Below, piece by piece: positions 8,544 to 55,888 of a DNA stretch of 64,000 bases. Origin of the DNA: a virus; the IMG/VR virus record IMGVR_UViG_3300032242_001655, positions 1 to 64,000 of that record; one strand, 5' to 3'. The position numbers and the translations under genes were made by a program. Within the stretch, counting starts at the first letter, position 1; each line of letters begins with the position of its first letter. The notes under the pieces were generated by a model. That model saw nothing but the letters and a program-made list of their open reading frames with translations, made no database searches and was not told the origin of the DNA.

Positions 8544-9851
8544 ATGGCAGATATAGCAAAAGAAATCAAAGGTTGGGCGGAGTACTTGGACCGCACACAA
8601 TGGTACAGCCTAAAAGAATTACAAGAAATACAAGAGCAGGGACTAAAGCGTATTGTTCTACATCATGCTGTACAGAGTCCTTGGTTCAAACAATGGCTAG
8701 CAGATCAAAATCTACAGCCCAAAGACCTGTTTACTGTAGAAGGACTACAACGGTTAAAGCCCTTTAACAAACGTGATATACAGTCCGCGGGCAAAGACTT
8801 TTTTGCTCGCAATGTTCCAGATGCTCATAAACCCGCTCGTGAAATCAGTACCAGTGGATCAACAGGACAGCCTATCACTACACTAAAAACAGCCATGGAC
8901 AATATCATTTGGAATGCCATGACTCTGCGTGATCATTCGTGGTGGGGCCGCAATGCTGAAGGGCAACGACTAACTGCTATCAAAGCAGGTATCAAAATAC
9001 AAGTAGAACATCAAATGTGGGGTCCTCCTATGAGCATATTCCATACTACAGGACCAAGTCAGGCTCTACCAGTGTGGATGAAGACCGAAGAACAGTTGGC
9101 CGCAGTGGAACGTTTCCAACCAGATATCATGATTCTACACGCAGGTGTACTTCGTGGATTTGTTACTATTTGGGAACGTACTGGTTATACTTTAACCAAT
9201 CTTAAACACTGCCGCAATATCAGTGATACAGTGGATCAGGATTTGCGTGATCGTTTTAGAGCCCTAAGTGGACTTGAAATTGAAGACAACTACAGTTGTA
9301 GCGAAACTGGTACAATAGCAATACAATGTCCTGTCAGCAGTTTATATCACACCATGATGGAAACACAGATTGTGGAAGTTATAGACAAGGACGGCAATCC
9401 CTGTCAAGAAGGCGAAGTAGGTCGTGTGGTTATCACAGACCTGTACAATACAGCAACTCCTATCATACGCTATGATATAGGAGACTACGCAAGAGTGGGC
9501 GGTGAATGTGGCTGTGGTCGTGTACATAAGACATTTACAGAAGTGTTGGGCCGTGAGCGTAATCTACTTAAACTTCCCGATGGTACACAGTTTTGGCCCA
9601 GAGCAGGACGCTATGAGATGCAGAAGATAGCACCAGTTCGTCAGTGGCAGATTGTACAGCACAGTTATGAAGATGTAGAGTTTAAGATTGTTACAGATGA
9701 TCCTATCACTGAAGAACAAGAAACAGAGTTAAAAGAGATATTTGGTAAAGCAATCAATAACTTTGCTAGTGTGCGTATCACTCGTTATGAACAAGCAATA
9801 CCACCTAACAAGGGCGGCAAGTTTGAGGAGAGTGTATGCTTGGTAGAATAA
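8544..9851 (+). CDS. PaaK/CapK-like adenylate-forming ligase
   Basis: A 435-aa ANL-superfamily enzyme of the phenylacetate-CoA ligase/CapK branch, which activates a carboxylic acid with ATP. Visible motifs are STSGSTGQP (phosphate-binding loop, about residue 110), YSCSETG (aromatic/TE motif), TPIIRYDIGDYA (adenine and ribose binding) and a small C-terminal domain. A CxCxR motif near ECGCGRVH matches the PaaK type. The substrate cannot be read from sequence. It overlaps the following Bug-family gene by 16 nt and follows the methyltransferase by 1 nt. A metabolic ligase among tail fibre genes is unusual; it may modify virion surface or host envelope components. Confidence 0.8.
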   Translation: MADIAKEIKGWAEYLDRTQWYSLKELQEIQEQGLKRIVLHHAVQSPWFKQWLADQNLQPKDLFTVEGLQRLKPFNKRDIQSAGKDFFARNVPDAHKPAREISTSGSTGQPITTLKTAMDNIIWNAMTLRDHSWWGRNAEGQRLTAIKAGIKIQVEHQMWGPPMSIFHTTGPSQALPVWMKTEEQLAAVERFQPDIMILHAGVLRGFVTIWERTGYTLTNLKHCRNISDTVDQDLRDRFRALSGLEIEDNYSCSETGTIAIQCPVSSLYHTMMETQIVEVIDKDGNPCQEGEVGRVVITDLYNTATPIIRYDIGDYARVGGECGCGRVHKTFTEVLGRERNLLKLPDGTQFWPRAGRYEMQKIAPVRQWQIVQHSYEDVEFKIVTDDPITEEQETELKEIFGKAINNFASVRITRYEQAIPPNKGGKFEESVCLVE

Positions 9852-10726
9852 TTTTAGGATTATTATTTTGTACAAGTGTGTTAGCACAGCCCATTAAGAT
9901 AGTTGTGCCTTTTACGCCAGGCGGTCAGGTAGATATTATTGCCCGCGAAGCAGAAAAACTTATTACACAAGAATTAAAACGCCCTGTTGTAGTAGAGTAT
10001 AAGTTAGGAGCAGGTGGTGTTGTAGGTGTAGGCAGTGTTGCCCGTAATAAAACAAATGATGTTACACTAATGACCATTGACAGCAATGTATTAGCAAATA
10101 CCATGTTGTTAGATAATATCGCATTGTCGGATTTTAAATACCTACATCTGTTAGGTACAACCAGCACCGCATTGATAATGACCAAAAATAGTCCGATTGG
10201 CAATATTAAAAATTGGAAGAATATTAAGCGACCTATCACTATAGGAACCAATGGATTTGGCGGAGCCCATCACTACTATACCTATACGTTAGGTAAAAGT
10301 ATGGGAATTAATTTTGTCATTGTTCCTTACAAAGGTATAGGAAGTGCTATGAATGATCTAATAGGAGGAACTATAGACGCCATGTGGGGAGGAGTTGCTA
10401 CATTTACTCCTTACGAACAATCTGGTAAAATAGAAATCATTGCTACTTTAAGTAATCGTAGACTTCCTTATGCTCCGCATGTGCCCACGTTTACAGAACT
10501 AGGTTATAATGCCGGCCCTTCTACACATTGGATGGTTATTACTAATAGTACAGCAGACCCGGAAACTGTACGCCAAATAACAGAATTATTCCAAAAACTG
10601 CCTACAGACAGTGAATTTTATACAAAGACTAATCTTTTATTTGAAAAAGGATCAATGGAATCTATAATAAAATCACGTATACAAGAGCAACGTGAGTTTG
10701 CTGAGATAGTAAAAGCCAAACAATAA
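9836..10726 (+). CDS. Bug/TctC-family periplasmic solute-binding protein
   Basis: A 296-aa tripartite-tricarboxylate-transporter receptor (TctC/Bug family), which binds carboxylates in the periplasm. The N-terminal 17 residues (MLGRIILGLLFCTSVLA) form a signal peptide ending in an AXA-like site. Family motifs are present: IKIVVPFTPGGQVDIIAR, VVEYKLGAGGVVG, VPYKGIGSAMNDLIGG and LPYAPHVPTFTELGY. The start at ATG 9836 is supported by GAGGAG. No membrane partners (TctA/TctB) are nearby, so the host would supply them. This family is hugely expanded in betaproteobacteria, which supports that host range and recent acquisition. Confidence 0.88.
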   Translation: MLGRIILGLLFCTSVLAQPIKIVVPFTPGGQVDIIAREAEKLITQELKRPVVVEYKLGAGGVVGVGSVARNKTNDVTLMTIDSNVLANTMLLDNIALSDFKYLHLLGTTSTALIMTKNSPIGNIKNWKNIKRPITIGTNGFGGAHHYYTYTLGKSMGINFVIVPYKGIGSAMNDLIGGTIDAMWGGVATFTPYEQSGKIEIIATLSNRRLPYAPHVPTFTELGYNAGPSTHWMVITNSTADPETVRQITELFQKLPTDSEFYTKTNLLFEKGSMESIIKSRIQEQREFAEIVKAKQ

Positions 10727-16756: not shown

Positions 16757-17830
16757 ATGCGAGCACGAGAATTTCTATCTGAAGCAAAACAACCTGATCT
16801 AATCTCAATCTTTAGAGATTTTCTGCCCTACGCAATGAAAGAACTAAAACTCGATCATTTGCCCCCAATTAAATTAGAATTAAAAATCAATGATGAACAT
16901 CAGCCTACATTTGGTAAGTTTGTCAATGATGAAGGTGTTATATACCTTGCCATAGAAGATCGTCATCCACTGGACATCATTCGCACACTGGCACACGAAC
17001 TTGTTCACTACAAACAGGGCGTGGAACACAGACTAGGACCTCGGAGCGGCGAAACAGGTTCAGCAGAAGAGAATCAAGCACACGAGATAGCGGGTGTTAT
17101 TATGCGTCATTTTAACAAGGATTCACGTCAATACTTTGACGAACCGGCGGTGAATTTGCGTGAAAGCAGTGAAGAAATACACAATTATCCCAAGTTAGAT
17201 CGAATACTGGATAGACTTGCTAAGATGGTTAATAAAGGGCAACGTATAGATTCGGAAAAATACGGAATGGTTGCGGCCTGTGTACTAGATCCAGATAACC
17301 GTATGGTTGCAGGACTTAACATGCCCGGACCTAATGGCACACGCCGTCACGCAGAACGTGTGGCTATAGACAAGTATCAGGCACAGCATGGTGCTATTCC
17401 ACCAGGCAGTATTGTGCTTACCACTTGCTCACCTTGCTCAGAACATATGGATGAGCGTTATCAAGAATCCTGTACAGAACTATTAAACAAAGTAGGTATT
17501 AAGAAAGTCTACTGCGGTTTCCGTGATCCTACACAAGCAGAAGATGATCGTGAGTTTGACATAATGGAAACCAGTGATAAAGGCATCCGACAAGAATGCC
17601 GTTCGTTTGCTGAAACATTTATGGAATATGAACATGATCAACAAACAGAAAACTTTGCCGATGGTAAGAATCCAGGACGTAAAGGTTTAGCCAAACGTTC
17701 GGGTGTAAACACCAAAGCATCAATCAGCAGTCTACGCAACACAGCAAAACATTCGTCAGGTGAAAAGGCTCGTATGGCACATTGGCTTGCCAATATGAAA
17801 TCAGGTAGAAAGAAACATGCGAGCAAGTGA
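16757..17830 (+). CDS. HExxH metallopeptidase fused to a cytidine-deaminase-like domain
   Basis: A 357-aa multi-domain protein. Residues 1-10 (MRAREFLSEA) resemble the T4 capsid-targeting sequence with a gp21-type L-x-E cleavage site. Residues about 40-120 form a SprT/IrrE-like zinc peptidase (HELVHYKQG, His80 Glu81 His84, with a downstream Glu near AHEIAG). Residues about 150-260 look like a deaminase: HAE at 198-200 and CSPCSEH at 224-230, where the usual PCxxC is PCxxH. The C-terminus (about 305-357) is a Lys/Arg-rich region with GRKGLAKRSG and MAHWLANMKSGRKK that may bind nucleic acid. It overlaps the next gene by 14 nt. Injected-effector status is inference. Confidence 0.75.
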   Translation: MRAREFLSEAKQPDLISIFRDFLPYAMKELKLDHLPPIKLELKINDEHQPTFGKFVNDEGVIYLAIEDRHPLDIIRTLAHELVHYKQGVEHRLGPRSGETGSAEENQAHEIAGVIMRHFNKDSRQYFDEPAVNLRESSEEIHNYPKLDRILDRLAKMVNKGQRIDSEKYGMVAACVLDPDNRMVAGLNMPGPNGTRRHAERVAIDKYQAQHGAIPPGSIVLTTCSPCSEHMDERYQESCTELLNKVGIKKVYCGFRDPTQAEDDREFDIMETSDKGIRQECRSFAETFMEYEHDQQTENFADGKNPGRKGLAKRSGVNTKASISSLRNTAKHSSGEKARMAHWLANMKSGRKKHASK

Positions 17831-35090: not shown

Positions 35091-35151
35091 ATAAATTGTC
35101 TGTTAAGCATCTTGGCATAGCCATGTTAGCAGTAATTGGGCGATGATTCTC

Positions 35152-35180
35152 TTGACAGATTCGTCAACGGTTAGTAAAAT
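35152..35180 (+). promoter_or_regulatory. Sigma70 promoter of the tmRNA
   Basis: TTGACA (35152-35157), 17-nt spacer, TAAAAT (35175-35180). Transcription would start near 35187. The -35 box is inside a short inverted repeat (TTGAC, 6 nt, GTCAA) that could bind a regulator. Confidence 0.85.
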
Positions 35181-35186
35181 GTAAGT

Positions 35187-35452
35187 TATTGCTGTATGAA
35201 GCAAAGAGAAAAGTGTTCTGGACGCGAGTTCGAATCTCGCCATCTCCACCTAAATGTATTAAGGTATATTTAGGTGGGGATGAAAATGGTTTCGACAGGG
35301 CAACAAGTAATGGCGTGGACAGCAGAGTAGGCGATGACTCTAAATCAAGCAAAAAACGTAAATGCAAACGACGAACAGTTCGCTTTAGCCGCCTAAACTC
35401 GGCTTAGGGTAGGAAATACCTCGTAACAGAAATAACCAGGGGCTACGGCCCC
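35187..35452 (+). ncRNA. ssrA: Circularly permuted (two-piece) tmRNA
   Basis: A transfer-messenger RNA with the acceptor piece encoded before the coding piece. Acceptor piece: T arm GCGAG-TTCGAAT-CTCGC at 35224-35240, then acceptor 3' strand CATCTCC and ACC ending at 35250. Coding piece: GGGGATG from 35276 starts the 5' strand, which pairs 7/7 with CATCTCC (one G-U), followed by the conserved tmRNA block ATGGTTTCGACAGGG. The 25-nt linker 35251-35275 closes a long hairpin (CCACCTAAAT with ATTTAGGTGG) that must be cleaved to free both ends. The tag frame follows at 35364. No encoded final A of CCA. The exact 5' and 3' ends are approximate. Confidence 0.93.
35364..35396 (+). other. tmRNA tag reading frame (ANDEQFALAA)
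   Basis: GCA AAC GAC GAA CAG TTC GCT TTA GCC GCC TAA encodes ANDEQFALAA and stop. It ends in the ALAA degron read by ClpXP and closely resembles betaproteobacterial tags such as ANDERFALAA. The preceding A-rich stretch (CAAAAAACGTAAAT) matches the usual context upstream of the resume codon. Confidence 0.93.
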
Positions 35453-35460
35453 TTTCTTAT
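35439..35460 (+). terminator. tmRNA terminator
   Basis: GGGGC (35439-35443) pairs with GCCCC (35448-35452) around TACG, followed by TTTCTTAT. It ends the tmRNA transcript before the 305-aa virion protein gene. Confidence 0.8.
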
Positions 35461-47054: not shown

Positions 47055-47406
47055 GAATGACACCTATAGTATTTTATTAATAGGTATCACTGAGTTAGAG
47101 CAAGACCAAATAAGTCATCAATTAGGTCAATTAGAATCAGACATACCGCTTAACATTTATTATTTTCAAGGCGAAAATAATATGGAGTGGTTGTTGTTTG
47201 CATTAAATAGATGTGACGCTGTATATATAAATGCTGACGCTGGCACAGACTTAGTCAAGTGGTTAGCCAGTTACATGTTAGGAAAATCAAATGTCTGGTA
47301 CTCTACTTCTGATAAAGAGTTGAAAGCATTGTTTTCATACATTAATCAGAAGTGGGTACCTGATATTAAAAAGTTTATAGAGGTTCAATTTGACAACAAG
47401 AAATAA
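47014..47406 (+). CDS. Rossmann-like hypothetical protein
   Basis: I prefer GTG 47014 ([15 protein letters not shown]); the frame also extends upstream to a TTG at 46993. The 130-aa product has [56 protein letters not shown], alternating strands and helices as in a Rossmann fold. No catalytic motif identified. It overlaps the preceding gene by 41 nt and ClpX by 17 nt, indicating coupled translation. Confidence 0.6.
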
Positions 47407-48631
47407 AGATCCACATTGCTCGTTTTGTGGTAAAGAAAAGAACACAGTTGAAAAACTTATTGTAGGTGCTGAAGATATAGGTATTTGTAATGACTGTGTT
47501 GACTTGTGCGTGGATATTCTAAAAGATGAGAAAGTTAAAAAGTTTCCACTTGAAGAAAAGAAACATTACAATCCTGTTAAGATCAAAGACTATCTTGATC
47601 AATACATTATTGGACAAGACGAAGCAAAGATAAGTTTGAGTGTAGCAGTTTGCCAACACTTCAAACGTATCAATCACCCTGACAAAGACATTGAATTAGA
47701 AAAGACCAATGTGCTTGTATTAGGTCCAACTGGTTGTGGTAAAACAATGTTGGCTAAGAAGATCGCAGAATATCTGGATATTCCTTTTGCCATCTGTGAT
47801 GCCACTGGACTAACCGAAGCAGGTTATGTAGGTGATGATGTAGAAAGTGTTCTTACTCGTCTAATCAATATAGCCGATGGAGATGTTGAGAAAGCACAGC
47901 GTGGTATTATCTATATCGACGAAATTGACAAACTTGCTCGAAAAGGCGAAAGCATGAGCATTACACGAGATGTTTCAGGTGAAGGTGTACAACAGGCTTT
48001 GCTTAAAATGGTTGAAGGGTCTGTGTGTAGGGTTCCTGCTGGAGACAAGCGCAAGCACCCAAAGGGTGATATGCTTGAAATTGATACCAGCAAGATCTTA
48101 TTCATCTGCGGCGGCGCTTTTGTCGGTATTGATAAAATCATTCAACGCAGACGAGGTTCAAAAGGCGTAGGCTTTGGTGCTACAATTAAAACCAAAGAAG
48201 AAGAAAACGTAGATGTATTCAAACACCATACTACTAAGGATCTTATCAGTTATGGAATGATTCCGGAATTTGTGGGACGTTTTGGTATCACAGTTAGTGT
48301 TGAAAAATTAACAGAAGAACAGTTAGTTCAAATTCTAAAAGAACCAAAGAACAGTCTTATCAAACAGTATCAATACATCTTTGAATTAGATGGACTTGGA
48401 CTTACATTTGAAGACTCTGCTCTTAAAGAAATTGCTCATAAGGCTACAGAATTAGATACTAATGCTCGTGGATTAAAAAGTATATTGGAAAAAATCTTAT
48501 TGCCTTACCAATTTGATGCTGTAGATTTACGTCAAAACGGTTTAACCAATATAAATATCACATTAGATGCTGTAAATGAACAACCAGCAGAATTAACATT
48601 TGAAACCGAACACAATGAGAAAATCAAATAG
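47390..48631 (+). CDS. clpX: ClpX unfoldase (AAA+ ATPase)
   Basis: A full-length 413-aa ClpX. N-terminal zinc finger Cys10, Cys13, Cys33, Cys36; Walker A GPTGCGKT (112-119); pore loop GYVG (145-148); Walker B IIYIDEID (173-180); sensor and arginine finger regions in the usual order; VGF (260-262) replaces the IGF loop that docks ClpP. Start is TTG 47390 with AGAGG before it, overlapping the previous gene by 17 nt. It needs host ClpP; substrates would include ssrA-tagged proteins made by the tmRNA at 35187. bS21 overlaps its end. Confidence 0.97.
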
Positions 48632-48845
48632 TCGTGGCCCAACCGTGGAGGTTAGAGATGCCAATATTAATGTTGCCCTGAGGAAACTCAAAAAGAAAGT
48701 TGAAGAGGGCGGAGTTCTACTTGAAGTTTTAGCCAATCAACATTTTGAAAAGCCCACCACAGAGCGTAAGCGTAAAAAGGGTGCGGCCCGTGCCCGTTGG
48801 CTTAAAAAACTACGCGATAACGAATTACCTAAAAAATTGTATTGA
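48615..48845 (+). CDS. rpsU: Ribosomal protein bS21
   Basis: A 76-aa bS21 paralogue: [54 protein letters not shown]. The [10 protein letters not shown] signature is the bS21 hallmark. ATG 48615 lies inside the clpX end (17-nt overlap); an upstream TTG is less likely. bS21 sits by the anti-Shine-Dalgarno and affects initiation, so a phage copy may bias ribosomes to phage mRNA. Phage-encoded bS21 is known (pelagiphages and large freshwater phages). Confidence 0.95.
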
Positions 48846-48870
48846 CTTTGGTATAAAAATGTAGTATAAT
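48842..48870 (+). promoter_or_regulatory. Sigma70 promoter (194-aa gene)
   Basis: TTGACT (48842-48847), 17-nt spacer, TATAAT (48865-48870), overlapping the end of the bS21 gene. Confidence 0.85.
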
Positions 48871-48892
48871 AGTTTTTTAACGAAAGAAACTA

Positions 48893-49477
48893 ATGAAACA
48901 AACCAAAATTGATCAAATTGTAGCAGATATTAAAACATTCGATTGGCAAAAAGTTATCGACTATGCTAACAGTTTGGGTTCACAATTTAATGATGCCCAG
49001 TGGCGATTCCTTAAAGGACTTATCTTAGAAAGGGCCGCCGAAATTCATTCTAATGATTCTACATTCAAATATGTTGGAGAAACACACTGCGATTTCCGAT
49101 GGGGGAAATACAAGATTACAGTAGAGCAAAAGAGTAAGACAGCAGGTAAGTTTTATACCAAAAAGAATAAACTCAAAAAAACAATTAGTTTTATTCTTAC
49201 TAATAGTTATGGAACCAACAACACAGATAAAATTTCTAGCACTTCTGTTTCGGATGTTCTTATTGGAATTGCAAGTGATGGAGTAGTGTTTGCATCAAAA
49301 GATACTGTACTCAAATATCTAAAAGAAAATGGTGATGGATTTGTTGTTAATATTCCAGCAACCGAAATTGTTGAAATAACCGGCCATACTACTCAAAAAG
49401 TAAAATACGAAAGCAAATTGGCTGAAAAGATTATTGAAGCAATTGACGAAGAAATTATTCGCTTGACAAAACAATAA
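48893..49477 (+). CDS. Possible PD-(D/E)XK-like protein
   Basis: A 194-aa protein from its own early promoter. The centre reads THCDFRWGKYKITVEQKSKT, a spaced Asp and Glu-x-Lys that resembles a restriction-endonuclease active site, but surrounding strands are not diagnostic. The N-terminus is helical (TFDWQKVIDYANSLGSQF) and the end is a helix (KYESKLAEKIIEAIDEEI). If a nuclease, host DNA would be the likely target. Alternative: an unknown conserved early protein. Confidence 0.5.
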   Translation: MKQTKIDQIVADIKTFDWQKVIDYANSLGSQFNDAQWRFLKGLILERAAEIHSNDSTFKYVGETHCDFRWGKYKITVEQKSKTAGKFYTKKNKLKKTISFILTNSYGTNNTDKISSTSVSDVLIGIASDGVVFASKDTVLKYLKENGDGFVVNIPATEIVEITGHTTQKVKYESKLAEKIIEAIDEEIIRLTKQ

Positions 49478-49491
49478 TTCTATGTTATAAT
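49463..49491 (+). promoter_or_regulatory. Sigma70 promoter overlapped by an inverted repeat
   Basis: TTGACA (49463-49468), 17-nt spacer, TATAAT (49486-49491). TGTTATAA (49483-49490) and TTATAACA (49498-49505) form an 8-bp inverted repeat over the -10 box and start, a plausible operator. Confidence 0.85.
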
Positions 49492-49517
49492 AGTGTTTTA
49501 TAACACAGAAAGATAAT

Positions 49518-50048
49518 ATGGCTAAGCACATGATGATTGACTTAGAGACTATGGCAGTCTCTCCAAATGCAGTAGTTCTAACATTAGGTGCAGTACATTT
49601 TAATCCCTACGGCAATGGGTATAGTGACAAACTATATCTACGTTTTGATCTCGATGATCAAGATAAGTTAGGACGTGAAATTGATCCAAATACACTTGAG
49701 TGGTGGGCTAAACAAGATCCTAAAGTTATGGAAGAAGCATTTAGTCCAGATGATCGTGTACCATTAGTAGATGCTATGGATCAGTTCCATAAGTTTGCAT
49801 GGGGCTGTACAGCCTTTTGGGCTCATGGTAGTTTGTTCGACATTGCTATCTTAGAAAATATATATCGTCAATTGGTACGTACTCCACCTTGGCAATATTG
49901 GCAGATCCGCGATACACGTACAATCTTTGATTTAGGGTATGATCCAGATATGCCTAAAGCCAGTAAGCACGATGCTCTACAGGATGCTATTCGTCAGTCA
50001 GTAGGTGTTCAAAATGTATACTCAAAATTGAAGATAAAAGAGCGGTAA
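49518..50048 (+). CDS. dexA: DexA-like 3'-5' exonuclease (DEDDh)
   Basis: A 176-aa DEDDh exonuclease like T4 DexA. MMIDLETM gives Asp8 and Glu10, AFWAHGSLFDIAIL the second Asp, and KHDALQDAIRQ the His and final Asp. It hydrolyses single-stranded DNA 3' to 5'. Start after AGAAAGATAAT. It follows an early promoter with an operator-like repeat. Confidence 0.88.
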   Translation: MAKHMMIDLETMAVSPNAVVLTLGAVHFNPYGNGYSDKLYLRFDLDDQDKLGREIDPNTLEWWAKQDPKVMEEAFSPDDRVPLVDAMDQFHKFAWGCTAFWAHGSLFDIAILENIYRQLVRTPPWQYWQIRDTRTIFDLGYDPDMPKASKHDALQDAIRQSVGVQNVYSKLKIKER

Positions 50049-50114
50049 ATTATCCAAAGATGTAAACTAAATATTAATCTAAAGCGTTATAGTATTATAA
50101 CCGAGGAGAAAATT

Positions 50115-50420
50115 ATGAAGAAACTCTTATTGGCATTATCAATGTTATGTGTTGTAGGTACAGCCGGTGCACAATGGCATCATGGTTATCATGGCTGTTG
50201 CTATAGAGGTGGTTACGGCGGTGGATGGGTTGCTCCTGCTCTTATTGGCGGAGTAATTGGATATGAACTAAGCAGACCTCAAACAGTTTATGTTGAACCC
50301 CAACCAGTGATTGTACAACCTCCTGTGAGCGTAGTGCAACAACCTCCAATTGGATACCATTGGCAAGAAATGATTGATCCTGCAACAAACACAAAGAAAA
50401 TTGTATTAGTACCAAATTAA
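50115..50420 (+). CDS. Secreted Gly/Tyr/His-rich small protein
   Basis: A 101-aa protein with a classical signal peptide, MKKLLLALSMLCVVGTAGA, then QWHHGYHGCCYRGGYGGGW, a glycine-zipper-like helix (ALIGGVIGYELS) and a Pro/Val/Gln-rich end. Likely periplasmic or outer-membrane associated; function unknown. GAGGAGAAAATT precedes ATG. A GTTATA-GTAT-TATAAC palindrome lies upstream at about 50085. Confidence 0.65.
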   Translation: MKKLLLALSMLCVVGTAGAQWHHGYHGCCYRGGYGGGWVAPALIGGVIGYELSRPQTVYVEPQPVIVQPPVSVVQQPPIGYHWQEMIDPATNTKKIVLVPN

Positions 50421-50421
50421 T

Positions 50422-50553
50422 ATGAAACTAAGAAAACTTCGCAAAAAATTATATCAGGCTATTTTTGAACACAAAGTAGAAAAAGAGAAAAAAGTTTGGT
50501 TCAAGATTCTTAAAAAATCCGTTAAACATAAACATACAGAAGATATAAGGTAA
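50422..50553 (+). CDS. 43-aa highly basic protein
   Basis: Begins 1 nt after the previous stop. MKLRKLRKKLYQAIFEHK then VEKEKKVWFKILKKS, with about 16 Lys/Arg; probably nucleic-acid-binding or disordered. Its TAA abuts the next ATG. Confidence 0.55.
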   Translation: MKLRKLRKKLYQAIFEHKVEKEKKVWFKILKKSVKHKHTEDIR

Positions 50554-50838
50554 ATGGCTTTAAAATTTGAACCCGGTGAGTCTTACGATAGTTGGGCAGG
50601 CCGGGTTGAAAAGTTTGAATTAGAACAAGCCCGCAAACGCATTGCCAAAGGTGATGATCCCAAATTGGTCTTAGAAGCCATGTCTAAATCAATGACACAA
50701 AAATTGATGCACCCTATATTACGAATAATTCGAGATAGTGCCGGTGGAGGATTTGATCCTGAAGCAAACAGAAAATCCTATAACGAATCCATGAAGGGTA
50801 GAGGTGTTGTAGCAGATCATGTAGAAAGGGATACATGA
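50554..50838 (+). CDS. Phage protein resembling the GluTR dimerisation region
   Basis: A 94-aa helical protein. KRIAKGDDPKLVLEAMSKSMTQKLMHPILRIIR resembles the C-terminal helical domain of glutamyl-tRNA reductase (L..G.dp..vLe.ls..ltnKlmH.p). Similar stand-alone proteins occur in T4-like cyanophages. There is no catalytic domain, so it cannot be a reductase; perhaps a decoy or an unrelated fold. Overlaps the next gene by 4 nt. Confidence 0.6.
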   Translation: MALKFEPGESYDSWAGRVEKFELEQARKRIAKGDDPKLVLEAMSKSMTQKLMHPILRIIRDSAGGGFDPEANRKSYNESMKGRGVVADHVERDT

Positions 50839-51083
50839 AATTAGATCGTAGATATACGGGTTATAGTGATTTCAAATATGCTGTGACCTTTAGATACAAA
50901 GAAGGTCAAATATTCTGCGAGCGTAGAGAATGGATGTGGGATCAATTTGGCCCAAGTTGTGAGTACGAACATTGGCGAGACGGCAAGCAGGCCTGTTGGT
51001 GTTGGATAAACGACAACTATAGAACTCGTATATTATTTGAAAGCGAAAAAGAATATAATTGGTACAGGTTAAAATGGGGTTGA
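50835..51083 (+). CDS. Conserved phage hypothetical, aromatic-rich
   Basis: An 82-aa Trp/Tyr-rich protein (FKYAVTFRYKEGQIF, REWMWDQFGPSCEY, CWCWINDNYRTRI). Beta-strand alternation suggests a small domain; the family is common in marine T4-like phages without known role. Overlaps its upstream gene by 4 nt. Confidence 0.6.
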   Translation: MKLDRRYTGYSDFKYAVTFRYKEGQIFCERREWMWDQFGPSCEYEHWRDGKQACWCWINDNYRTRILFESEKEYNWYRLKWG

Positions 51084-51108
51084 CTTTTTACCAGTTTCAT
51101 AGTATAAT
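51080..51108 (+). promoter_or_regulatory. Sigma70 promoter (metallophosphoesterase), leaderless
   Basis: TTGACT (51080-51085), 17-nt spacer, TATAAT (51103-51108), then ATATGT and ATG at 51115. No ribosome site; predicted leaderless. Confidence 0.85.
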
Positions 51109-51114
51109 ATATGT

Positions 51115-51936
51115 ATGAAAATCCACTATGTTTCCGACCTGCATCTTGAATGCGAATACCAAGAACTTCCCGGCGGAGAAGTACTGATCCTTGCTGGCGA
51201 TATTGCCGAAGTTGTAGGAATCAGTAAACAGCATCACAGCACCAAACTCGTTCAGGACACTCCTGATCACGTCTACCGTTTGAGTGAATTCTTCAAATGG
51301 GAATGTGCCAAATACGATAAGGTATTTTATGTGTTAGGAAATCATGAACACTATCACGGACGTTTGGATAAGTCTTATCACATTCTAAAATCAATCATGC
51401 CTAACAATGTCAGTATGTTAGAGAACGAAGTTGTCGAATACAAGGGTGTTATGTTCATGGGTGCCACCATGTGGACCGATATGAACAAGAATGATCCTAT
51501 TACTCTTTATGCTGTTAAAAATGGTATGAACGATTACAGGGCTATTACTAATCTCTACGAGAACAAAAACGTTTACTATAAACTAACTCCAGAACATACT
51601 GTTGGCATTTTTAGGAAAACTGTAGAATGTTTTAAACAGATATTAGAAAGTGATGAAAACAAAACTAAACCATTTGTTGTAATCACACATCACAGTCCAA
51701 GTTATCAAAGTATCAACAAAAAGTATAAATCTGAGTATCACATGAATGGTGCTTACTGTAGTGATCTAAGTGATTTTATATTAGATCATCCTCAGATCAA
51801 ATACTGGATACACGGACATCTACATGATCCTGTAGACTACATGATTGGTGATACTCGTATCATTAGCAACCCGCGTGGATATATAGGATTTGAAGATACT
51901 GATCAATTTGATCCTAACAAGAGTTTTGAAATTTGA
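51115..51936 (+). CDS. Calcineurin-type metallophosphoesterase
   Basis: A 273-aa phosphoesterase: HYVSDLHLE (Asp/His), ILAGDIAEV, YVLGNHEHY, TMWTDM insertion, VITHHSPSY and WIHGHLHDP. The family dephosphorylates nucleotides or small phosphoesters; substrate unknown. It overlaps the next gene by 4 nt. Confidence 0.88.
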   Translation: MKIHYVSDLHLECEYQELPGGEVLILAGDIAEVVGISKQHHSTKLVQDTPDHVYRLSEFFKWECAKYDKVFYVLGNHEHYHGRLDKSYHILKSIMPNNVSMLENEVVEYKGVMFMGATMWTDMNKNDPITLYAVKNGMNDYRAITNLYENKNVYYKLTPEHTVGIFRKTVECFKQILESDENKTKPFVVITHHSPSYQSINKKYKSEYHMNGAYCSDLSDFILDHPQIKYWIHGHLHDPVDYMIGDTRIISNPRGYIGFEDTDQFDPNKSFEI

Positions 51937-52145
51937 TTAAAGTTAGAATCAAATGGAGTAGAGACTTATCTACAGAAGAAGCGTGGGATAAAGTCTGTAT
52001 ATGGGCCCTCGAGCATTTTGGACTGCCCGGGGGCCGATATTCTACAGAACTTAATATTGACTATATGGATTTTATCTTTGAAAGCAAACATGATGCGCTC
52101 ATGTTTGCCCTAGCCCAGAATGGGCAATTACTTGAACCAGCCTAA
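51933..52145 (+). CDS. Small conserved phage protein
   Basis: A 70-aa protein: MIKVRIKWSRDLSTEEAWDK, then ALEHFGLPGGRYSTELNIDYMDF and ESKHDALMFALA. The short alpha/beta pattern is phage-conserved; function unknown. Its 3' end overlaps the 3' end of the reverse-strand YbaN-like gene by 18 nt. Confidence 0.65.
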   Translation: MIKVRIKWSRDLSTEEAWDKVCIWALEHFGLPGGRYSTELNIDYMDFIFESKHDALMFALAQNGQLLEPA

Positions 52146-52562
52146 CTTTTCGCCGGCTTCTTTGCGTCTTTCTGCTTCTTCTTTACTACCAGGTAGTCTA
52201 TATGCCCAGAATAAAATTAGCATAAAGAAGATGCTCATCCACATGCAGGCTTTCCAATTACCTGTAGCAAACCATAGTATAATCAAACTGGCATCCATAC
52301 TAGCAAACATAGCCCACTTAGCCATTGTAGGAAATACACGACCGTTTTTCCAGTTAGCAATAAATGGTCCAAACAGTTTATGATTTATCATGTAGTTATG
52401 AAAACGCTCTGAACTACGAGCAAAGCAGTAGGTAGCAATTAGACTGGGTGTTGACCAAGGAATTCCTGGTACAATAACACCAATGTAGGCAATACCTAAA
52501 AACATTATACCTGCGGCAAACCACAATCCTTTTTTAATCTTTTTAATCAATTCCATTGACAC
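52128..52562 (-). CDS. DUF454/YbaN-family inner-membrane protein
   Basis: A 144-aa membrane protein on the reverse strand: hydrophobic LWFAAGIMFLGIAYIGVIVPG, then IPWSTPSLIATYCFARSSERFH, NHKLFGPFIANWKNG (the YbaN signature), and two later spans (FASMDASLIILWFA, ACMWMSIFFMLILFWAY). Family role unknown. Only reverse gene in the 20-57 kb block; ribosome site is a GAGAGTGTC-like sequence. May be acquired host gene. Confidence 0.85.
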   Translation of the reverse strand: MSMELIKKIKKGLWFAAGIMFLGIAYIGVIVPGIPWSTPSLIATYCFARSSERFHNYMINHKLFGPFIANWKNGRVFPTMAKWAMFASMDASLIILWFATGNWKACMWMSIFFMLILFWAYRLPGSKEEAERRKEAGEKLGWFK

Positions 52563-52578
52563 TCTCCATTCTTTCGTG

Positions 52579-52586
52579 TATAAATA
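52579..52586 (+). promoter_or_regulatory. Late promoter of the small heat-shock gene
   Basis: Perfect TATAAATA, 84 nt upstream of the ATG at 52671, giving a long structured leader. Confidence 0.7.
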
Positions 52587-52624
52587 TAGTTATACAGAAA
52601 TGCCTATTAGGGTTCTGTATATTG

Positions 52625-52664
52625 GGCATGGTGCCCACAAAAACGTTCTTGCTTATTAAAGGAG
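52625..52664 (+). promoter_or_regulatory. Structured leader, possible ROSE-like RNA thermometer
   Basis: A hairpin GGGCA-TGG-TGCCC (52625-52638 region) is followed by TTGCT (52649-52653) facing AGGAG (52660-52664) across a 6-nt loop. ROSE thermometers of small heat-shock genes use U(U/C)GCU to mask AGGA with a G-G pair; this fits but is short. Confidence 0.35.
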
Positions 52665-52670
52665 AAAACT

Positions 52671-53108
52671 ATGAACGCAATTACTCGCCTTGACACAAAC
52701 GCTCTAAGTCAATTAAACAGAGCACTCGTTGGATTTGATCGTATGTTTGACACATTCGAGCACAGATTTGCAAACCAAATCCAAAACAACTACCCCCCAC
52801 ATAACGTACTCAAAGTAGATGAAAACAACTACGCAATTGAAATTGCGGTTGCTGGATTCCAGAAGAGTGAAGTCACTGTGAAGGTAGATCAAGACGAATT
52901 AGTAATTACAGGTCAACGCACCGAATCACCCGAAGTAGAGTATCTACATCGTGGATTGAGCAGTCGCGACTTTACCAAATCATTTACTCTTGCTGAGTAT
53001 ATGGTTGTTAAAGGTGCTGTAATTAAAGATGGTATTTTGAGAATTGATCTCGAACGCCAACTTCCCGAGGCTTTACAACCCCGTCTTATTGACATTGTAG
53101 AGGCTTGA
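52671..53108 (+). CDS. Small heat-shock protein (HSP20/IbpA-like)
   Basis: A 145-aa alpha-crystallin-type chaperone. After MNAITRLDTNALSQLNRALVG, the core reads YPPHNVLKVDENNYAIEIAVAGF, DELVITGQ, YLHRGLSSRDFTKSFTLAEY and GILRIDLERQLPE. It holds unfolded proteins; in T4-like phages HSP20 may protect virion assembly. Strong ribosome site AAAGGAG. No typical C-terminal IxI anchor is obvious. Confidence 0.93.
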   Translation: MNAITRLDTNALSQLNRALVGFDRMFDTFEHRFANQIQNNYPPHNVLKVDENNYAIEIAVAGFQKSEVTVKVDQDELVITGQRTESPEVEYLHRGLSSRDFTKSFTLAEYMVVKGAVIKDGILRIDLERQLPEALQPRLIDIVEA

Positions 53109-53118
53109 TGCTATAATT

Positions 53119-53146
53119 AAAGCAGGGGGAATTAACTCCCTGCTTT
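53119..53146 (+). terminator. Terminator after the heat-shock gene
   Basis: AAAGCAGGG (53119-53127) pairs with CCCTGCTTT (53138-53146). Confidence 0.8.
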
Positions 53147-53153
53147 ATAAATA
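53146..53153 (+). promoter_or_regulatory. Late promoter of clpS
   Basis: TATAAATA begins in the last base of the terminator stem, 18 nt before the clpS ATG. Confidence 0.65.
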
Positions 53154-53171
53154 ATACACTCGGGGAACTTA

Positions 53172-53474
53172 ATGGAACAAGTTGACGTCAAAGAAATAGA
53201 AGAAATAGATATTGAGATTTTGAATCCAGGAAAATATAAAGTTGTGGTTCAAAACGATGATGTCACACCGATGGAGTTTGTTATTGCCATGCTGATACAG
53301 GTATTCAATCACTCCGAAGAACGTGCTAAAGATATAACACTACAAATTCACAACGATGGAGCAGGAGTCGCAGGCATATTCAGTTATGAAGTAGCCGAGC
53401 AAAAGGGCATTGAGGGTACACTATTAGCCCGCCAACATGGTTGGCCCTTAGCAATTAAAATCGAGGAAGAATGA
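53172..53474 (+). CDS. clpS: ClpS-like N-degron adaptor
   Basis: A 100-aa ClpS homologue: YKVVVQNDDVTPMEFVIAML (the NDD-x-TPMEFV signature, which binds N-degrons), HSEERAKDITLQIHNDGAGVAG, then EVAEQKGIEGTLLARQHGWPL. It lacks a long N-terminal tail. ClpS delivers N-end-rule substrates to ClpAP. With phage ClpX, bS21 and tmRNA it suggests directed proteolysis control. Overlaps FabF by 4 nt. Confidence 0.93.
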   Translation: MEQVDVKEIEEIDIEILNPGKYKVVVQNDDVTPMEFVIAMLIQVFNHSEERAKDITLQIHNDGAGVAGIFSYEVAEQKGIEGTLLARQHGWPLAIKIEEE

Positions 53475-54703
53475 AATTTGCAATTACCGGAATAGGAATC
53501 CTTAACGGATTAGGCTCCACGCTGGAAGAAAATTGGAGCAATCTATTAGCAGGTAAGTCTGCTATACAGGATATTGAGTGGCCCGAAGATAATCCTGACG
53601 TTCTTCCTTCTACCTGTAAAGGTATACAGATTAAAACTGGATTCCCTAGTCCCACTCCAGAATTTACACGAGACGAGTACGATAATGAACACCGTCATTG
53701 GTCACGTTCTACCAAAATGACTATATATACTGGCACCCAAGCCTATAAGGATAGTGGCCTTACTTCTAAAAACGTGGGAGTATTTTTTACAACTACTGTT
53801 GGGCAAATGGAAGCCAACAACAAAATTATGAAGGCTATTGACAAAGGCCGTGAAAAATACAGCCCTAAACAAATATTGAATGGTAGTAATGCGTACGGTA
53901 GTGAACAGGTACAGAAATATTTAAAACTAGAAGGTCCTAGTGGATCAATACACACTGCCTGTGCCACAGGAATCTACCTACTTGATTACGGAATAAAGAC
54001 ACTGATGACAGATCCGGATCTAGATGCTGTAATGATCGGATGCAGTGACAGTTGCTTTCAACCATTTGTCTTTTATTATTTTCAAAATCTTAATGCGCTG
54101 AGTCGCCAACCTGCGGAAGAGGCATGTAAACCATTTGATGTTAATAGATCCGGATTTGTGTTAGGTGAAGGATCTTGTGCTTACATTATAGAACCTCTAG
54201 AAAAAGCAGTTGCCCGAGGTGCATATATCTACGGACTAGTATTAGGTACAGGTATTTCTGGCTCAGGAGTATTTGACACAGAACCCGATCCCACTGGTCA
54301 TACACAAAGATTAGCAGTGAATAAGGCACTCCGTAATGCCCGTGTAGATCCAGAAGATATCGATTATATTAATGCTCATGCTACAGGCACACCAGTTGGT
54401 GATGAGTTAGAATACAATCTCATGAATGAAATGTTCCATGGTAAAGTCATGGTAAGTAATAAAGGACAAATAGGACATACATTAGGAGTTTGTTCTGTGA
54501 TAGAGTTAATCTATACTATAATGGCTCTTAAAGAGCAACGCACACCGCCTAATGTAAATTTAACAACACCAGTAGGTGCCGGAATGCAGTTGCCCACGAC
54601 TGAAACCAAGATATACGCAAAGTATGCTCTAAAGAATAGTTTTGCGTTTGGAGGACGTTCAGCCTGTGCTGTATTAGCAAAATATGATGGAGAAACAAAA
54701 TGA
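53471..54703 (+). CDS. fabF: 3-oxoacyl-ACP synthase (FabF-like, KAS II)
   Basis: A 410-aa beta-ketoacyl synthase. The catalytic Cys164 lies in SIHTACATG, His303 in NAHATGTPVGD, and Lys331 plus His336 in KGQIGHTLG. Sequence length and order match FabF that condenses malonyl-ACP with acyl-ACP. It may alter host lipid elongation, or act in a special biosynthesis with the ligases and desaturase. Overlaps ClpS and the heme oxygenase gene by 4 nt each. Confidence 0.95.
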   Translation: MKFAITGIGILNGLGSTLEENWSNLLAGKSAIQDIEWPEDNPDVLPSTCKGIQIKTGFPSPTPEFTRDEYDNEHRHWSRSTKMTIYTGTQAYKDSGLTSKNVGVFFTTTVGQMEANNKIMKAIDKGREKYSPKQILNGSNAYGSEQVQKYLKLEGPSGSIHTACATGIYLLDYGIKTLMTDPDLDAVMIGCSDSCFQPFVFYYFQNLNALSRQPAEEACKPFDVNRSGFVLGEGSCAYIIEPLEKAVARGAYIYGLVLGTGISGSGVFDTEPDPTGHTQRLAVNKALRNARVDPEDIDYINAHATGTPVGDELEYNLMNEMFHGKVMVSNKGQIGHTLGVCSVIELIYTIMALKEQRTPPNVNLTTPVGAGMQLPTTETKIYAKYALKNSFAFGGRSACAVLAKYDGETK

Positions 54704-55236
54704 GTTTAAAAGAGTTAACCTGGGATAATCACCAACGAGCAGAAGCCACAGCATTTATGAAGGCTGTGTTTGATAAGTCTATGCTACAATCAGCATGGGC
54801 AGACTTTACATATCAAAAGTCAGTTATTTACGGATCAATTGAAAATGTTGCCCGTGATGCTAAACTTACATTAGACATTCTTGAAATTGAACGTGCTCTA
54901 AAATTATACTTAGATGCTCAAGATATGTGTGGAGGTGAGTTTCCACGTATTCGTAAAGAAACTGTTGAGTATAGCAGATACATCATGAACTTGGTAGGAC
55001 AACCAGAGCGCATTATGGCACATCTTTATACTTGGCACATGGGTGACCTGTTTGGTGGGCAGATGATCAAGAAGATGATGCCCGGACCTCATCGTAACTT
55101 AGAGTTTGATGATGTAGATAATCTCAAAGCCAAAGTACGTGCTAAGTTAAAAGATAGTATGGGAGACGAAGCAAATGTGGCTTTTGAATGGGCAATCAAA
55201 CTAATGGAGACTTATAATAATGAGCTCAGTGTTTGA
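54700..55236 (+). CDS. hemO: Heme oxygenase (biliverdin-producing)
   Basis: A 178-aa heme oxygenase: LTWDNHQRAEA (proximal His11), FMKAVFDKSM, YLYTWHMGDLFGGQMIKKMMPG (distal Gly helix). It opens heme to biliverdin with iron and CO release. In the next gene, a bilin reductase could use this biliverdin. Found in cyanophages and pelagiphages. Overlaps FabF by 4 nt and the reductase by 17 nt. Confidence 0.93.
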   Translation: MSLKELTWDNHQRAEATAFMKAVFDKSMLQSAWADFTYQKSVIYGSIENVARDAKLTLDILEIERALKLYLDAQDMCGGEFPRIRKETVEYSRYIMNLVGQPERIMAHLYTWHMGDLFGGQMIKKMMPGPHRNLEFDDVDNLKAKVRAKLKDSMGDEANVAFEWAIKLMETYNNELSV

Positions 55237-55888
55237 AAAAAGCATTGCCTGTGCTAAAGAGTTTGAAAGACGTTTTAGAGAAACAGGAACATTAGAAGTT
55301 TCAAATATAGACGAAAGTGTAGGTTTATATGACCTTTCATTTTCATCTATGCGTTATCGGAGGGCACATCTTAGCATAGTTGATGCTCGAGAAACTAAAA
55401 ATGTATGGATGCTACATGTAACAGTATTCCCTCACACAAATGACAGTGCTCCTATCTACGGGTTTGATATTGTAGCAGGTCCTAATAAAGTTAGCGGTGC
55501 GTTTCACGATTTCAGTAAAGCAGGTGATGCTGACCATTATATGATGAAGTGGTTTGCTAATTGGACTGACGAGTTAGACTGGAATAAACGTAGAGAATTA
55601 CCTGAGTGGGCAAAAAACATCTTTAGTGATAGCATAGTTGCTATAGGTGCAGTTGATGCAGAAGAACTGGGTTATTTTACAGATTTAGGATTGTCTACAC
55701 TTAATTACTATTTAGATAGGGTAGGAAACACTCAAGAAAGCGGATTTGATTATCATATGGCACAGAATCGCTACTGTTATTATCAAAAGCAAAACCCACA
55801 TACTCCCAAGGTATTGGTTAATTTAGGGTTCACAGAATCAAAGGCCAAAGAATTTATTGCTAACAATTTGTTTCCAGAATTAGCATAA
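55220..55888 (+). CDS. pcyX: Ferredoxin-dependent bilin reductase, PcyX/PcyA-like
   Basis: A 222-aa FDBR: APIYGFDIVAGPNKVSGAFHDFS is the family signature, SIVDARETKNVWMLHVTVFP precedes it, and HMMKW-type helices follow. In cyanophages and some marine phages, biliverdin is reduced to phycoerythrobilin or phycocyanobilin; the phage-borne PcyX subtype reduces it to phycoerythrobilin. Close coupling to the heme oxygenase (17-nt overlap) implies sequential action. Sub-type call is inference; exact product unknown. Electron donor ferredoxin not in window. Confidence 0.9.
   Translation: MSSVFEKSIACAKEFERRFRETGTLEVSNIDESVGLYDLSFSSMRYRRAHLSIVDARETKNVWMLHVTVFPHTNDSAPIYGFDIVAGPNKVSGAFHDFSKAGDADHYMMKWFANWTDELDWNKRRELPEWAKNIFSDSIVAIGAVDAEELGYFTDLGLSTLNYYLDRVGNTQESGFDYHMAQNRYCYYQKQNPHTPKVLVNLGFTESKAKEFIANNLFPELA

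Follow-up and report, generated by a model that had tools for sequence, protein, structure and literature searches.

Two-piece tmRNAs are already known from phages, 53 having been recorded among 133 distinct phage tmRNAs, with 50 from marine or aquatic samples (PMC9004378), and the novelty implied for the present gene in its preliminary description was not borne out, such molecules being both published (PMC9004378) and common in IMG/VR. The tmRNAs of methylophage Melnitz and of other aquatic phages (PMC9004378) are, like that of the window (the whole 64,000-nucleotide stretch of DNA analysed), phage-encoded and circularly permuted with a full tag frame. However, the Melnitz ssrA is of the alphaproteobacterial type and is tied to a glutamine riboswitch (PMC9004378), whereas the tmRNA of the window is of the betaproteobacterial type, has a sigma70-like promoter and is situated upstream of clpX. 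Its intervening sequence is also shorter than in most phage relatives. A betaproteobacterial lineage of permuted ssrA was reportedly recognised by Sharkady and Williams in 2004. With the betaproteobacterial family (RF01850) the window gene has in common a full-length match that includes the promoter and terminator regions, the tag and the acceptor stem; it differs in residing in a virus record without smpB, and in scoring 161 bits as against 251.5 bits for the best bacterial copy.

The wider neighbourhood can likewise be compared with described phages, tmRNA and SmpB having been published from huge phages (PMC7162821), and ClpX and ClpS being known to occur in jumbo phages (PMC7824862). As in the window, a tmRNA accompanies ClpX and translation genes in huge phages (PMC7162821), in Bacillus phage G (PMC4131195), and in the Sinorhizobium phages AP-J-162 (PMC11242549) and Phosso. 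Phosso, however, carries its ClpX and permuted tmRNA genes ~31 kb apart on opposite strands, unlike the same-strand arrangement of the window, while the tmRNA of Bacillus phage G gave no match to the permuted model, and in that phage its own ClpP adjoins ClpX. In Pseudomonas phage PA5oct (MK797984, 169742-172904) the order clpX, bS21, heat-shock protein, clpS is identical to that at 47390-53474 of the window, this proteostasis block being common to the two distant phages, although PA5oct, unlike the window phage, yielded no permuted tmRNA match. No description of a linked tmRNA-clpX-bS21-hsp20-clpS block was found in the literature searched, subscription journals lying mostly outside its coverage. 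While the phage two-piece tmRNA is not in itself new, the linked neighbourhood may be, and this block is the part worth following: the fixed slot upstream of clpX and clpS makes the use of two-piece tmRNAs to phages a testable question, and the further question is raised as to whether a phage can take over the rescue of ribosomes and the breakdown of tagged products with host SmpB as its sole need.

The constituent features of the tmRNA gene are as follows.

35138..35459, plus strand: permuted tmRNA gene of betaproteobacterial type, promoter through terminator (RF01850, RF04321, ARAGORN tmRNA*)
35152..35180, plus strand: sigma70-type promoter TTGACA-17-TAAAAT (11/12 consensus positions, inside the RF01850 match)
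35224..35250, plus strand: acceptor piece, encoded first, consisting of T arm, acceptor 3' strand, discriminator A and CC (sequence, pairing)
35224-35228 / 35236-35240, plus strand: T stem (pairing)
35241-35247, plus strand: acceptor 3' strand CATCTCC, followed by A-C-C (sequence, pairing)
35251..35275, plus strand: intervening sequence of 25 nt, predicted to be removed on processing (precursor fold)
35276..35282, plus strand: acceptor 5' strand GGGGATG, at which the coding piece starts (7/7 pairing with 35241-35247)
35364..35396, plus strand: tag reading frame ANDEQFALAA, from the GCA resume codon to the TAA stop (ARAGORN; coding part at gene positions 206-238)
35438..35453 (stem), plus strand: intrinsic terminator hairpin with T-rich tail (sequence, RF01850 alignment)

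Comparison with the Rfam permuted models upheld the initial identification of a circularly permuted tmRNA: RF01850 (beta_tmRNA) scored 161.4 bits against a cut-off of 84, with model positions 1-331 of 331 matched, and RF04321 (tmRNA_permuted) gave a full-length match of 142.1 bits against a cut-off of 47 at 35190-35396, the respective E-values of 6.4e-50 and 6.3e-28 excluding a chance match. ARAGORN called the permuted form and returned the tag ANDEQFALAA that had been read previously. The permuted order reported at that stage was equally evident, the stretch 35224-35250 preceding GGGGATG at 35276 with a 25-nt linker between them, as was the complete acceptor stem, in which all seven pairs form between GGGGATG and CATCTCC, the third being a G-U (G3-U70). 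G3-U70 is the alanine identity pair. The CCA end is only partly encoded (ACC-U, i.e. CC alone), so that the final A has to be supplied once the RNA has been processed, and by analogy with the described permuted form (PMC11915505) an RNase P cut is predicted immediately before 35276.

The 25-nt intervening sequence compares with a median of 73 nt over 169 permuted tmRNAs. In the minimum-energy fold of the precursor the acceptor helix runs on through this sequence as a single stem of ~19 bp; the hairpin earlier proposed to join the two pieces is thus present, but the 13 bp then assigned to it were too few. The fold of the gene was more stable than those of shuffled sequences (z-score -3.45). The sigma70 promoter claimed earlier is likewise present, agreeing with the consensus at 11 of 12 positions; by itself such a promoter-like match was not above chance (one found against 1.4 expected in shuffles), but the site lies inside the RF01850 match starting at 35138, where the model consensus reads cUUGA...UAuAAU. 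The terminator at 35438-35453, also claimed, was present with its T-rich tail.

Covariation was assessed over the window tmRNA together with 20 others taken from viral records found via clpX and not via a tmRNA motif, circularity thereby being avoided; pairing was scored directly, at least 6/7 acceptor pairs and at least 4/5 T-stem pairs were demanded, and one locus (L342) was left out of the comparison. The split acceptor and T stem were recovered in 20 of these 21 tmRNAs. Acceptor pairs 4-6 and the T stem show compensatory changes, and every one of the 20 has G3-U70. Of the 169 permuted tmRNAs recovered altogether, motif-selected and bacterial examples among them, 168 have the third-pair G-U. 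The compensatory changes and G3-U70 would appear to be the trace of selection for a working, chargeable RNA, and the window tmRNA and its relatives keep an unbroken tag frame with its resume codon and stop.

The window covers the opening 64 kb of an IMG/VR record of 96,078 bp (38.8% G+C). That record encodes tail-fibre proteins, ribonucleotide reductase and the thymidylate synthase Thy1 as well as tRNAs (22 within 64-74 kb and a further one at ~86 kb), a complement which identifies it as a phage fragment; the phage origin ascribed to the tmRNA was thus confirmed, and the same contig encodes its own ClpX at 47390-48631. The betaproteobacterial type likewise proposed from the tag accords with the 161 bits to RF01850, the same model giving no more than 73 bits in all but one of the 83 matching genomes of a phylum sample, the exception scoring 251.5. 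A DNA search of 369 genomes for a permuted ssrA of the host gave short, weak matches only, and a T-arm pattern search of the genome collection mostly found apparently standard tmRNAs and pointed out no host. Across the class, phylum and order samples there was one close bacterial permuted ssrA (in G843), which was absent from its sampled order-mates. Beta-like permuted tmRNAs were observed in five further genomes, all of one order (G167, G574, G536, G539 and G532; loci L358-L362); of the 85 order-mates sampled, most were without a match of this kind. A TctC-type solute-binding protein (PF03401) is encoded at 9836-10726 of the window. Such proteins are expanded in Burkholderiales, and the gene offers a weak hint of a host in that direction.

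Downstream of the tmRNA are clpX and the following genes.

47390..48631, plus strand: phage ClpX, full length (zinc finger, Walker A/B, GYVG, RKH, VGF loop, arginine finger, sensor 2)
48600..48845, plus strand: ribosomal protein bS21, overlapping the 3' end of clpX (PF01165, E=1.8e-14; phrog_21469)
49518..50048, plus strand: Rv2179c-like 3'-5' exoribonuclease (PF16473, E=5.3e-36)
52671..53108, plus strand: Hsp20 small heat-shock protein (PF00011, E=4e-19)
53172..53474, plus strand: ClpS adaptor (PF02617, E=1.3e-24)

All of the ClpX motifs sought were found (zinc finger, Walker A/B, pore loops and ClpP-binding loop), the ClpP-binding loop reading VGF where IGF is usual, and the NDD and H of the ClpS N-degron pocket were present as judged by eye.

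The association of the two genes was then followed through viral records, relatives of the ClpX being confirmed in 192 stretches, the best 80 of which were kept. When 49 ClpX-bearing records from this set were searched over their whole length, a permuted tmRNA above cut-off was detected in 32, as against 4 of 32 randomly drawn viral records of at least 20 kb (32:17 versus 4/32; Fisher p ~3e-6, related records not being independent). In all 33 records with both genes, the window's included, the tmRNA preceded clpX by 2.6-16.5 kb on a common strand, and among records of at least 60 kb it was located within 20 kb upstream in 15 out of 15, 1.1 being expected by random placement. The genes between the tmRNA and clpX vary among records, but the block retains NrdB, glutaredoxin, a PAAR protein and a protein of 460 aa whose function is unknown. 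Since the first three of these are also conserved upstream, the linkage is at least partly a matter of shared descent, and it could be explained by conserved synteny alone. The reverse count gave a ClpX relative in only 8 of 50 tmRNA-bearing viral records, which means that a phage tmRNA is usually not accompanied by a phage ClpX.

The slot upstream of clpX was occupied by 13 beta-type, 4 clearly alpha-type and 8 weakly alpha tmRNAs. According to Sharkady and Williams (2004), the alpha and beta permutations are said to have arisen independently, and if so at least one replacement of the tmRNA has taken place at this site. The fixed site of the tmRNA upstream of viral clpX and clpS hints at a tag-and-destroy module that is the lineage's own. 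One ClpX match, in the Acinetobacter 'phage' MD-2021a, was set aside as having a tig-clpP-clpX order and the appearance of host DNA. For seven permuted viral tmRNAs (L026, L051, L060, L062, L037, L076 and L082) ARAGORN returned long tags of ~28-33 residues, some of which end in AFA or VLA and not in LAA.

SmpB (PF01668) was not found in any of 50 records (the window's, itself a fragment, plus 49 relatives) by a search that was positive in 10 of 14 control genomes. Of 12 relatives no shorter than 140 kb, 11 encode ClpP, which was not found in the 96-kb fragment to which the window belongs. The tmRNA system would thus depend on the host for SmpB and perhaps for ClpP as well. Neither the missing SmpB nor the bS21, Hsp20 and ClpS genes nearby figured in the preliminary description.

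That the tmRNA is functional at all seems highly probable from the features described. The best explanation overall, for which the chances appear about even, would be that a large tailed phage carries a permuted tmRNA of host type which is functional and acts with Clp proteins of both phage and host. The gene would be transcribed by host RNA polymerase from its own sigma70-type promoter, and host tRNA-processing enzymes would excise the 25-nt intervening sequence, leaving two pieces, an acceptor part up to ~35250 and a coding part starting at 35276, joined through the acceptor stem and adjacent helices. Following CCA completion and alanine charging by host enzymes, the molecule, with host SmpB, would rescue ribosomes stalled on mRNAs cut during infection, the stalled proteins receiving the ANDEQFALAA tag and passing to a ClpXP containing phage ClpX together with either host ClpP or a phage ClpP from the missing part of the genome. 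Transcription, processing, charging, tagging and the use of phage ClpX are all predictions from sequence. Delivery of tagged proteins to the phage's own ClpX, as put forward in the preliminary description, is plausible, with the linkage and the intact ClpX motifs in its favour; we further infer that phage ClpX may replace host ClpX and that phage ClpS may divert host ClpA, although host ClpX alone could be doing the work.

The main rival to an explanation involving phage ClpX is that the tmRNA works merely as an extra copy of the host gene, adding to host trans-translation through the SmpB and ClpXP of the host, its proximity to clpX being inherited order without functional meaning. This has an appreciable if limited probability, for other genes of the block also show vertical synteny, most tmRNA-bearing viral records have no ClpX relative, and both tag and promoter are host-like; the occurrence of beta- and alpha-type tmRNAs in one slot, together with the enrichment alongside ClpX, nevertheless suggests a combination that has been favoured. 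A more ambitious proposal, which we consider unlikely, is that the phage lineage keeps a phage-controlled tag-and-degrade module of permuted tmRNA, ClpX, ClpS, bS21 and Hsp20, with ClpP in larger genomes, supplying all but SmpB and swapping beta- for alpha-type tmRNA at one slot to match the host, so that rescue and proteolysis would pass to phage control.

It is improbable that the RNA acts instead as a decoy or competitor, titrating host SmpB and slowing host trans-translation in the manner suggested for the tRNA-like-only tmRNA of mycobacteriophage DS6A: no phage SmpB was found and the tRNA-like domain of tmRNA alone is reported to inhibit host tmRNA (PMC4131195, PMC11915505), but a decoy would not need the tag frame, resume codon and stop, all of which the window tmRNA and its relatives keep intact. 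Host ssrA genes often serve as integration sites (PMC9004378), from which imprecise excision might leave a functionless relic; however, the gene is complete from promoter to terminator, compensatory changes and an invariant G3-U70 extend across phages, and the position is conserved in many genomes, all of which render this origin exceedingly improbable. Both a chance match and a relic were accordingly rejected on model scores and covariation, and the earlier view of an intact gene stands on the promoter-to-terminator model match and the compensatory changes.

Several minor observations were made on the same DNA and its relatives. The clpX reading frames of two viral records (L104 and L080, in G094 and G085) each contain one in-frame TAG, possibly a case of stop-codon reassignment. 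At 54700-55888 of the window, a heme oxygenase (PF01126) is followed by a ferredoxin-dependent bilin reductase (PF05996), constituting a bilin-making pair in a phage. Finally, unrelated open reading frames starting at 16757, 17817, 21872 and 55897 have the similar leaders MRAREFLSE, MRASEIQSN, MRAREFIHE and MRAKEFLLE, which we take to recall T4-like capsid-targeting sequences.
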